From NCBI RefSeq assembly GCF_003353065.1, contig NZ_CP027806.1, positions 3,740,501 through 3,804,500 on the forward strand: 64,000 nt of DNA, given 5' to 3'. Position 1 is the first letter of the stretch. Each line of letters starts with the position of its first letter. The notes beneath the pieces are model-generated. The model did not search any database. It saw nothing but the letters and a program-made list of their open reading frames with translations, and was not told the DNA's origin. Below, piece after piece: positions 58,194 to 61,764 of the stretch. The DNA is from Cyclonatronum proteinivorum. GTDB taxonomy: Bacteria; Bacteroidota; Rhodothermia; Balneolales; Cyclonatronaceae. The translations under genes were made by a program, and so were the position numbers.

Positions 58194-58303
58194 AAATCAG
58201 GATAAGGATAAAGTTAGTAGCACAACCGGAAATCAATTAAAGGCATTGGGTCTTAGGAATCAAACCTAAGAAATGTTTCGGGCAGCTATTTCGGCTTTGT
58301 ATT

Positions 58304-58351
58304 TTACTCAATAAACTGAGTAATTTATCTCAAAGTATTGAGTAATTTGTA
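58304..58351. repeat. Distal pair of 22-bp-period TGAGTAATTT repeats
   Basis: CTGAGTAATTTAT and ATTGAGTAATTTGT start their GT step at 58320 and 58342, exactly 22 bp apart. TTACTCA/TGAGTAA also forms an inverted pair at 58304-58323. The spacing equals that of the proximal array at 58732-58811. Confidence 0.7.
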
Positions 58352-58414
58352 TCAGCTAAAGTAAGTACTTGATTTTATTTTCTGAATAGCCTGAAATAAT
58401 AGTGCTTTAAATCA

Positions 58415-58640
58415 GCTTCATAAACCAATAATTTTCTTGCTGGAAAATAAAGGAGTAAACTTAACGGAAGAGCATCCAAGTAATTTGAGCATGCGTTTTC
58501 ATCTTCAGCTTGGTCAGCGCACGAAATTTCACAGCCATTCTATCATCCCCAAATTCAGGCTGCCCTATTTTTTTTCAAGCATAATATAAACTATTGTTTA
58601 AGCAATCATTTCCGTATCAACTTGAGTAATATAGGTTAAG
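58415..58640. mobile_element. MITE-like element D, strongly degenerate
   Basis: AATAATTTTCTTGCTGG, GCATGCGTTTTCATCTTCAG, GCGCACGAAATTTCACAG, CCCCAAATTCAGGCTG and GAGTAATATAGGTTAA align in order with element B. The terminal repeats are eroded and the hairpin is imperfect. It lies between the distal and proximal 22-bp repeat groups. Confidence 0.55.
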
Positions 58641-58731
58641 AGGCAAAGCCAGCTATAGCCACAAATGCAGTCTTTGCCTGATCAGAGCCGACGTACTTGA
58701 ATTTAGTCTTCTTCAATTGTTTTAATAAAGC

Positions 58732-58811
58732 TGTGTAATTTATCACGTAGAATTGAGTAAATTATCTCATATCATTGAGTAATTTGTAGCTATCTGTTGA
58801 GTAATTTGTTT
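58732..58811 (+). promoter_or_regulatory. Four 22-bp-period repeats directly upstream of the DUF4143 ATPase gene
   Basis: Four copies of (T/G)GAGTAATTTGT-like sequence have their GT step at 58735, 58757, 58779 and 58801: an exact 22-bp period, about two helical turns. The last copy ends 4 bp before the ATG. The spacers differ in sequence. The pattern fits cooperative binding of a protein to one face of the DNA over the promoter and ribosome-binding region. Confidence 0.7.
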
Positions 58812-59993
58812 ATGAGCTTTCAACGTGTTGCAATACATGAACTTAGGAAAAGAGTATTAACAGAAAGAAGGCGGTTTATACAGGTCGTTTATGGCCCGAG
58901 ACAGGTAGGTAAGACCACCTTAGTAGTACAATTACAGAAGGATATCGGCATTCCGGTATGGTACTGCACTGCTGATGCCGTACCGGTTGCAGATTTTGGC
59001 TGGATTCGTCAGCAATGGGAAACAGCAAGAATGCGGACAGGGGAAGGGAGAGGACTCCTCATCATCGATGAAATTCAAAAGGTTACCAACTGGAGCGAGC
59101 AGGTAAAGAAAGAATGGGAATCGGACACCTTTTCGGAGACAAATCTGCACGTCATTTTACTTGGCTCTTCTAGGCTGCTCCTGCAGCAGGGACTCACCGA
59201 ATCTTTAACAGGACGCTTTGAAGTCCACTACTGCGGGCACTGGAGCTATGCTGAAATGAAAACTGCATTTGATTTTACCCCTGAGCAGTATGTGCTGTTT
59301 GGTGGATATCCCGGAGCCGCAGAGCTGATCCACGACGAGACCCGCTGGGAAAACTATCTTCGAAATTCACTGATCGAGACCAGCATATCTAAAGATGTGC
59401 TTATGCTTGCCAACATCAACAAGCCCGCTTTGCTTAGGCAGCTTTTTGAACTCGGTACTATTTATTCCGGACAGATTCTGTCTTACAACAAAATGATCGG
59501 GCAACTCCAGGAGGCCGGAAATACTACAACACTGGCCCATTATCTCTATCTGCTAAGCAGCGCCGGACTTCTGAGCGGTATTTCCAAGTACTATCCCGAA
59601 AAAGTGCGGCAGCGCGCATCCAGTCCGAAATTTCAGGTGCAGAATACCGGTCTGATGACCGCCATTTCAGGAGAACGCATCACATCAATCCGCGAAAACC
59701 CCAAACTGTTTGGCCGCTGGGTTGAATCCGCGATTGGAGCCCACCTGCTTGACCAGTCTATTCAGCACCATTTCAAATTGTGGTATTGGCGGGACCGTAA
59801 CGACGAGGTTGATTTCGTACTCCAAAAAGGAGCCAAAATTATCGGGATTGAAGTGAAAAGCGGTTATGCGAGGCCAACAGCTGGCATGTCGGCTTTTCAG
59901 CAAAGATACGACCCGTTCAAAATTCTTTTGGTTGGTGACGGTGGTTTACCCTGGCAGGAATTTCTTGAAGTAGATATCAGCGAGCTGTTCTAA
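58812..59993 (+). CDS. AAA ATPase with C-terminal DUF4143 domain
   Basis: 393 residues from ATG 58812; a TTG 15 bp upstream is possible but lies in the repeat array. FIQVVYGPRQVGKTTLV is Walker A (about 22-38), LLIIDEIQKVTNWSEQ is Walker B (about 84-99), and VILLGSSRLLLQQGLTESLTG is the sensor segment with the arginine finger region. The C-terminal half has the DUF4143 layout, ending in RNDEVDFVLQKGAKIIGIEV and KSG, which resembles a PD-(D/E)XK nuclease core (D-x-n-E-V-K). These P-loop proteins are common in Bacteroidota and archaea and their cellular role is unknown. It is monocistronic, with an unusual repeated leader. Confidence 0.9.
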   Translation: MSFQRVAIHELRKRVLTERRRFIQVVYGPRQVGKTTLVVQLQKDIGIPVWYCTADAVPVADFGWIRQQWETARMRTGEGRGLLIIDEIQKVTNWSEQVKKEWESDTFSETNLHVILLGSSRLLLQQGLTESLTGRFEVHYCGHWSYAEMKTAFDFTPEQYVLFGGYPGAAELIHDETRWENYLRNSLIETSISKDVLMLANINKPALLRQLFELGTIYSGQILSYNKMIGQLQEAGNTTTLAHYLYLLSSAGLLSGISKYYPEKVRQRASSPKFQVQNTGLMTAISGERITSIRENPKLFGRWVESAIGAHLLDQSIQHHFKLWYWRDRNDEVDFVLQKGAKIIGIEVKSGYARPTAGMSAFQQRYDPFKILLVGDGGLPWQEFLEVDISELF

Positions 59994-60104: not shown

Positions 60105-61764
60105 ATGAGTGCACCACAATCAATCATGAACCGGTACAGTCGCCGGCTCACGCAGGACCGCTCGCAGGCCGGTTCGCAGGCTATGCTGCATGCAACAGGC
60201 CTTAGCCGGACTGATTTCGACAAAGCGCAAGTAGGCATCGCCAGCATGGGCTGGGAAGGCAACCCCTGCAATATGCACCTGAACGAGCTGGCCAAAACGG
60301 TAAAACAGGGCGTAACCAATGCCGGACTCATCGGCTACATTTTCCACACCATCGGCGTGAGTGACGGTATTTCGATGGGTACCGAAGGCATGAAATACTC
60401 CCTGCAATCAAGGGAAGTCATCGCTGACTCCATCGAGACCGTGATGGGCGCGCAATGGTACGACGGTCTGGTGGCACTGCCCGGCTGCGACAAAAACATG
60501 CCCGGCAGTGTAATGGCCATGCTCCGGCGGAACCATCCGCCCCGGAAAACTTGGCGCGCAAAAGCTCGACATTGTATCTGCCTTCGAAGCCTACGGCGAG
60601 CATCTTCAGGAAAAGCTCGATGCCGGTCAGTACGCCGAAGTGCTGATGCATGCCTGTCTCGGTCCCGGTGCCTGCGGCGGGATGTATACCGCCAACACCA
60701 TGTCCTCTGCTATTGAAACGCTGGGACTCAGCCTGCCTTACAGCTCCTGCACCCCGGCAACGAGCGACGAAAAGACCGATGAATGCCTGCGCATAGGTGC
60801 CGTTATGGAACAGCTGTTACGGCTTGACCTCAAGCCGCTCGATATCGTCACCCGTGCTGCGCTCGAAAATGCGATAGCTGTCGTGATCGCCCTTGGCGGC
60901 TCGACCAACGCGGTCTTGCATCTGCTCGCCATTGCGCAAACGGCGGGTATCGCGTTCACGATTGACGATTTCCAGGTCGTTTCCGACCGCACCCCTTACC
61001 TTGCCGACCTCAAGCCCAGCGGGCGCTTCGTGATGGAGGACCTGCACGAGGCAGGCGGCGTACCTGCCGTACAAAAGCTACTGCTGCAGCACGACCTCAT
61101 TGACTGAAGCTGTCTCACGGTAACCGGTAGAACCCTCGAAGAAAACCTCAGCGAGCTGCCCGGCCTTGCGGATGGACAGCAGGTTGTGGTGCCGGTTGAC
61201 AAGCCGCTTAAAGCGACCGGTCACCTCACCGTCCTTTACGGCAATCTTGCAGAGGAAGGCAGTGTGGCCAAAATCACCGGCAAAGAAGGCACCCGTTTTG
61301 AAGGCCGCGCCGTTGTGTACAATTCGGAGGAAGCCTGTATTGCCGGTATCGAGGCCGGTGAGGTCTCGGCCGGCAGCGTCGTTGTCATCCGCTATGAAGG
61401 ACCCCGTGGCGGCCCGGGCATGCGCGAAATGCTGAAGGTCACCGCAGCCATCATGGGCGCGGGTTTGGGCAAGGAAGTCGCGCTGATTACCGACGGCCGC
61501 TTCTCGGGCGGCACGCACGGCTTCGTGGTCGGACATGTCTGCCCCGAAGCCTGGGACGGCGGCGCCATAGCCCTGATCGAAAACGGCGACCGCATCATCA
61601 TCGATGCGGATGCCAAAATGATGCATCTGGACCTCCCGGATGCACTCTTGGAAACCCGCCGCAAAGCCTGGCGGCAACCCGGGAGCGGCATCACGTCCGG
61701 AGCGTTGCACAAATACCGCAAGCTTGTAGGCCCCGCCTCCAAAGGCTGCCTCACAGACCGCTAA
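60105..61764 (+). pseudogene. ilvD: Dihydroxy-acid dehydratase gene ilvD, broken by a deletion/frameshift and a nonsense codon
   Basis: The full family length is covered. The N-terminal frame has [17 protein letters not shown] and [15 protein letters not shown]. At about 60518-60527 roughly ten codons normally found between MPGSxMAM and GGTI are missing and the frame moves. The second frame continues [37 protein letters not shown] and [19 protein letters not shown] at 61105-61107 sits exactly where DGSCLTVTG needs Gly (GGA to TGA). The same frame then goes on to [28 protein letters not shown] and KGCLTDR. The enzyme makes the 2-keto acids of valine, isoleucine and leucine. Two independent lesions suggest loss of function unless another copy exists. 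Confidence 0.88.

Follow-up and report, generated by a model that had tools for sequence, protein, structure and literature searches.

PDC-S01, a PADLOC phage defence candidate, ranks fourth in abundance among prokaryotic defence systems, with about 29,500 bacterial and about 10,000 archaeal copies, according to a 2026 survey which, in the portion of its text considered here, describes an ATPase fused to a PD-(D/E)XK domain, gives no DNA site or regulation for it, and lists experimental validation as pending for most PDCs, PDC-S01 included (PMC12988326). Regulation has been described for AbiE, a type IV toxin-antitoxin system in which the winged-helix antitoxin AbiEi binds inverted repeats near its own start codon and exerts negative autoregulation (PMC3985639). 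The gene studied here resembles PDC-S01 in its full-length HMM match and its fusion of ATPase and PD-(D/E)XK domains, and goes beyond the survey's account in having an operator-like array. It resembles AbiE in that the gene of a predicted winged-helix protein has inverted repeats ahead of it, close to its start, but differs in that ATPase, winged helix and nuclease-like domain are combined in a single protein, which is no AbiEi homologue by Pfam. Private operator arrays of PDC-S01 appear to be undescribed in the open-access literature.

A PDC-S01 gene with a predicted three-domain product

The gene is located upstream of ilvD in the window (the whole stretch of 64,000 nucleotides that was analysed), and it comprises the following features.

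58812-59993, plus strand: AAA_14 + DUF4143 gene (Pfam), 393 aa, PDC-S01 by PADLOC (581 bits over 392 aa)
58812-59261, plus strand: AAA ATPase domain, aa 1-150, with invariant G28, R30, G33, K34, D86 and E87
59424-59639, plus strand: winged helix of the AlphaFold2 model, aa 205-276, with the predicted recognition helix at aa 238-250 (59523-59561)
59700-59933, plus strand: PD-(D/E)XK nuclease-like domain, aa 297-374, with invariant E332, D334, E347 and K349

Pfam assigned AAA_14 (72.8 bits) and DUF4143 (93.2 bits) to the product, both above the curated cut-offs, and none of the Walker A/B and nuclease-like residues listed above varied among 74 aligned homologues. The AlphaFold2 model (pLDDT 92.8) predicts an AAA domain, a winged helix and a nuclease-like C-terminal domain. 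For residues 1-287, the best structural alignments were with the archaeal ATPases PABY2304 (2qen, Z 16.5) and SSO1545 (2fna, Z 16.4), at rmsd 3.2-3.3, which have this fold in common with the window protein, and Orc1/Cdc6-like folds were also among the matches. The C-terminal PD-(D/E)XK domain falls outside the aligned range, and this list of matches therefore says nothing on nuclease relatives. We know of no operator for either archaeal ATPase. Sequence searches with the window protein gave no match in the PDB or in NCBIfam. Downstream, ilvD (dihydroxy-acid dehydratase, window 60105-61764) appears to be split into three frames, by frameshifts or sequencing errors; G022, a genome of the same genus, has an unbroken copy (L228, 562 aa).

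A palindromic array ahead of the start codon

The leader contains two groups of repeats and a spacer between them.

58301-58350, plus strand: distal array, with ACTCA at 58306, TGAGT at 58317, TCTCA at 58328 and TGAGT at 58339, alternating and 11 bp apart; the same-genus orthologue has a counterpart
58430-58609, no strand given: MITE-like dispersed repeat, between the array groups
58732-58809, plus strand: proximal array, with TGTGT at 58732 and TGAGT at 58754, 58776 and 58798, at 22 bp; inverted TCTCA at 58765, other inverted half-sites degenerate

The original prediction of six direct copies, grouped as 2 + 4 with exact 22-bp spacing inside each group and the last copy at the start codon, agreed with the coordinates (58317 and 58339; 58732, 58754, 58776 and 58798) and with a shuffle test, in which the 13 matches with at most one mismatch found in the window, against 3.6 ± 1.8 expected, were reached by no shuffle. 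Four of the six copies are exact TGAGTAATTT and the remaining two have one mismatch, while a seventh copy (TGAGTAATAT, at 58623) is out of phase with the other six. Only 3 bp separate the last direct copy from the ATG at 58812, which is a family-consistent start with the P-loop 27 codons downstream.

The direct repeats are one side of a palindromic unit. Inverted half-sites (ACTCA at 58306, TCTCA at 58328 and 58765) stand between the direct copies, half-sites follow each other every 11 bp, and the 22-bp period is the view from a single strand. These inverted half-sites had been overlooked in the original prediction, as had the PDC-S01 identity of the gene, the family-wide rule and the phage copies described below. 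Several inverted half-sites of the window leader are degenerate, and its best inverted repeat within 150 bp was not significant. A search of the whole 4.29-Mb genome for the exact 22-bp double half-site gave three occurrences, every one of them in this leader, and the five TGAGT/ACTCA dyads (at most one mismatch) of the 64-kb window are likewise found only in this leader.

The spacer had been explained as a decayed MITE that split an originally longer array. A dispersed repeat does lie there, with at least 40 relatives across the genome at 69-77% identity, most of which have the left edge at 58430 in common. The splitting of one longer array is unneeded, because the same-genus orthologue (G022, 83% amino acid identity) has two array groups about 430 bp apart with an unrelated spacer sequence in place of that element. 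G022 also has a third array (L228:8809-8846), about 2.5 kb upstream of its distal array and past two unrelated genes. An empty-site comparison within the genus found no alignable upstream flank in G395.

Conservation of the array in close homologues

The same array was found at the start codon of relatives with about 40-60% identity in Bacteroidota, Spirochaetota, Proteobacteria, Elusimicrobiota and Fibrobacteres and on plasmids. Homologous genes lacking a periodic repeat were looked for, and nearly all close homologues turned out to carry the array. The leaders of 60 close homologues contained 161 exact half-sites against about 20 expected, with 77 half-site pairs at 11 bp in alternating orientation (39 '<>' and 38 '><') and 45 like-site pairs at 22 bp (28 + 17); the start codon followed the last half-site at a median distance of 20 bp. 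Conservation was concentrated in this region: for gene pairs with 40-50% amino acid identity, 62% had at least 13 of 16 bases in common within -100 to -1, compared with 4% within -200 to -101 and 4% downstream. Of 20 genomes that have the gene, 12 contained exact dyads; none of 20 genomes lacking it did.

One half-site per 11 bp, in alternating orientation, is consistent with the cooperative binding on one DNA face that had been suggested from the two-turn spacing. The inverted repeats adjoin the start codon, where they might also work as mRNA hairpins in attenuation or translational control. We regard this as highly improbable, as half-site sequence, phase and orientation are all kept, beyond what pairing alone would require, the phase matches the DNA helical repeat, and a search of the leader against Rfam gave no family and one sub-threshold chance match.

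A family-wide rule for DUF4143 leaders

Fourteen DUF4143 loci, 12 of them intact, are scattered on one chromosome of this genome, and the leader motifs of these paralogues differ from one another (for example, CACTTTTTC..GAAAAAGTG, TTTGGTGA..TCACCAAA and GCTTAnTAGAATAAGC). When the leaders of 99 distinct DUF4143 genes were analysed, the best inverted repeat scored 9.8 versus 5.4 after shuffling, and a significant inverted repeat (0.05) was present in 65% of them, compared with 13% of the leaders of 132 other genes and 14% of the flanks downstream of the DUF4143 genes themselves, the excess being seen in both TGAGT-type (57) and other-type (42) leaders. Direct repeats were significant in 14 leaders (7 of the genome's own paralogues, including the window gene, and 7 other non-TGAGT genes), with periods of 22, 23, 32 or 33 bp, which are two or three helical turns; in the seven significant control leaders the periods were scattered. 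The 22-bp period, which was to be looked for in other DUF4143 leaders, holds for the TGAGT homologues, and elsewhere a significant direct repeat has a period of 22-23 or 32-33 bp.

The palindrome rule is not absolute, because the leader of L003 has a single large palindrome and those of L005, L006, L008 and L009 have weak palindromes or none; about a third of the DUF4143 leaders, some with doubtful starts, had no significant palindrome. Extended palindromes of the form AATTAC..TGAGTAAAATTACTCA..GTAATT, akin to the L201 leader, were also seen in G309 and G348 with no adjoining DUF4143 gene (L225:10399, 11531 and 11885; L226:4622 and 5723; L227:2089).

An iteron-like role had been raised as well; it would make the array a replication origin under an ORC-like ATPase, for which the 22-bp spacing, the AAA and winged-helix domains and the Orc1/Cdc6-like folds among the structure matches could be cited. 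With 14 DUF4143 loci spread over a single chromosome, the majority of the intact ones having their own palindrome or repeat, and a window product in which Pfam finds AAA_14 and DUF4143 and no Rep domain, this role is scarcely credible.

Several lineages have another array 4-100 bp past the stop codon, and arrays thereby flank both ends of the gene (G273, G236, Algoriphagus loci and a Collinsella plasmid). A few arrays also occur where there is no gene (L353, L358 and L359); a gene remnant, recognised by HMM, lies behind the intact array of L375, and a truncated reading frame, by sequence reading, behind that of L356. The array after the stop codon and the third G022 array exceed the needs of a simple repressor. 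The flanking arrays and the remnants, together with the several scattered DUF4143 paralogues per genome, would suit a selfish gene that uses the array as its site of recombination or mobility. Recombination between the flanking arrays would then move or remove the array-gene-array unit, and the PD-(D/E)XK domain might be what cuts the array. This reading is nevertheless unlikely, given that most loci have a leader array only, that downstream palindromes across the family are about as frequent as in controls (14% versus 13%), and that exact dyads were absent from the sampled genomes that do not have the gene.

The motif tracks the protein clade, not the genome, and therefore the encoded winged-helix protein is the likely binder. 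By eye, a recognition helix with R/K-G-N goes with CTAAT half-sites and one with D-A-G-N goes with TGAGTAA, a covariation that looks suggestive but comes from too few lineages. The array could instead be the operator of another host regulator, since binding by the encoded protein is deduced from sequence and defence genes can have regulators encoded apart from the effector, RptR being an example (PMC12255303). We find this improbable, because the motif follows the protein clade across Bacteroidota, Spirochaetota, Proteobacteria and others and paralogues in the same genome use different motifs; a common third party across such phyla is hard to imagine, and DUF4143 genes mostly stand alone.

The best explanation, to which we assign a probability of roughly three in four, is that the leader repeats are the cognate operator of their own gene, whose product would bind the array and repress itself. 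The winged helix is predicted to dock cooperatively on the palindromic array, with a subunit at each 11-bp half-site along one DNA face, and the array-bound protein would repress its own gene at transcription or at translation start, with a possible role for ATP. The modelled winged helix, the clade-tracking motif and the position of the array at the start codon all point to the autoregulation by the ATPase that had been proposed for this locus, and AbiEi offers a precedent for it. Because the palindrome differs from one DUF4143 (PDC-S01) lineage to the next, paralogues in one cell would be insulated from each other.

Copies of the array in phage contigs

A protein-blind DNA scan of IMG/VR found ACTCA-n6-TGAGTAAWWTTACTCA in at least 120 viral contigs (L232-L351). 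No DUF4143 protein was found on the 120 listed array contigs (tblastn for 80 loci, HMM for the other 40), and a protein search of viral contigs with the window protein gave no relative. The contigs that were checked are phages: L252 has portal, head protease and tape measure genes, and L349 and L320 have DNA polymerase/primase and exonuclease genes. The portal protein is distantly like that of Nonlabens phage P12024S/L, and the phage array had no match among annotated phages.

On the listed contigs, the array usually lies in a non-coding gap of about 750 bp, in which palindromes number 4.6 per kb, against 1.1 per kb in the rest of these contigs' intergenic DNA. Recurring palindromes flank it in a largely fixed order over about 420 bp (for example, L320:7936-8360, L345:10839-11340 and L349:11457-11970), and its immediate neighbours vary, with 101 distinct contexts among the matches listed. 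Of the 120 listed contigs, which are non-independent samples, many from related phages, 96 have two or more module types inside 700 bp; in 398 control windows the other modules were found five times in all. The remaining 24 listed contigs have the PDC module alone, in some cases possibly within coding sequence.

Small genes lie between modules in L247, L267, L301, L308, L312, L341 and L351 and look by eye like GIY-YIG or HNH-type endonuclease genes. The idea that the mosaics are scars or landing pads was set aside, as these small genes are all that lies between the phage modules and none is a DUF4143 gene.

Proposed identities of the phage modules

One phage gap was compared with 394 genomes at the DNA level, with few candidates scored per genome, and weak AT-rich matches within coding regions were set aside as chance. 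In these genomes, the TGAGTAA module led mostly to PDC-S01 leaders. The TGTTCA..GTTCAC..GTGAAC..TGAAC module led to AbiEi/AbiEii leaders in four genomes by Pfam (L361, L368, L376 and L378, with L376 also called AbiE by PADLOC) and in a fifth (L391), and the full TGTTCA..TGAAC architecture was present on 36 of the 120 listed phage contigs and nowhere in 214 kb of control sequence. The module TTGTAACA..TGTTACAA led to a single DUF6088-AbiEii leader (L394). A pattern search for TGAGCCG-n15-CGGCTCA placed it at the start codon, or immediately ahead of it, in three Fic/DUF4172 genes (L397, L398 and L400), which are SoFic by PADLOC; in L398 it occurs up to three times, analogous to the PDC-S01 arrays. 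The assignments thus stand on five bacterial loci for AbiEi/AbiEii, one for DUF6088-AbiEii and three for SoFic.

The PDC-S01 module occurs with at least one of the other three on 84 listed contigs, with two or more on 55 and with all three on 14. Further palindromes recur in the phage gaps (AAAGTAAAA..TTTTACTTT, TGTCAC..GTGACA, TGCATGAA..TTCATGCA, TTGACAACA..TGTTGTCAA and GTTGYATAAAATGCAAC), and by analogy these five are candidate operators of other defence or toxin-antitoxin genes. The common denominator of the modules is plausibly a set of autoregulated DNA-binding defence proteins, because a transcriptional-regulator C-terminal domain is weakly matched by two SoFic proteins out of the three and AbiEi is a winged-helix autorepressor (PMC3985639).

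Discussion

Phages seem to gather the operators of several defence systems, since the three other palindromes match AbiE leaders, of two types, and SoFic leaders. We tentatively read the mosaics of about 0.4 kb, which combine the PDC-S01 array, two AbiE operator types, a SoFic operator and more palindromes, as possible DNA decoys against autoregulated host defence proteins, an idea that we place somewhat short of even odds. Many cognate sites on replicating phage DNA would then sequester the winged-helix effectors or regulators that belong to several systems, or keep them at bay, all at the same time. Phages keep the array, although its avoidance would be expected if binding triggered cleavage, which suggests that the array-bound protein is inactive or sequestered. 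A rival reading, by analogy, is that phages use host regulators to time their own genes. LPEG phages have clusters of sites for CtrA, a host cell-cycle regulator (PMC9437464), and these are like the mosaics in that a large phage intergenic region is dense in sites for a host DNA-binding protein; they concern one cell-cycle regulator, whereas the mosaics hold sites resembling several defence or toxin-antitoxin operators.

For PDC-S01, a DNA target that can be read from sequence and is specific to the lineage offers a direct way to learn what the protein binds and how it is kept off, and the presence of the same array with AbiE- and SoFic-type operators in phages that do not have the genes suggests that site occupancy matters in infection. 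If it is true that phages assemble PDC-S01, AbiE and SoFic operators, this would show independently that phages are affected by these proteins; it would also point to a counter-defence built of DNA sites and not of proteins, a phage counter-measure of a new kind, and the arrays of a phage could serve as a catalogue of its hosts' defence regulators.
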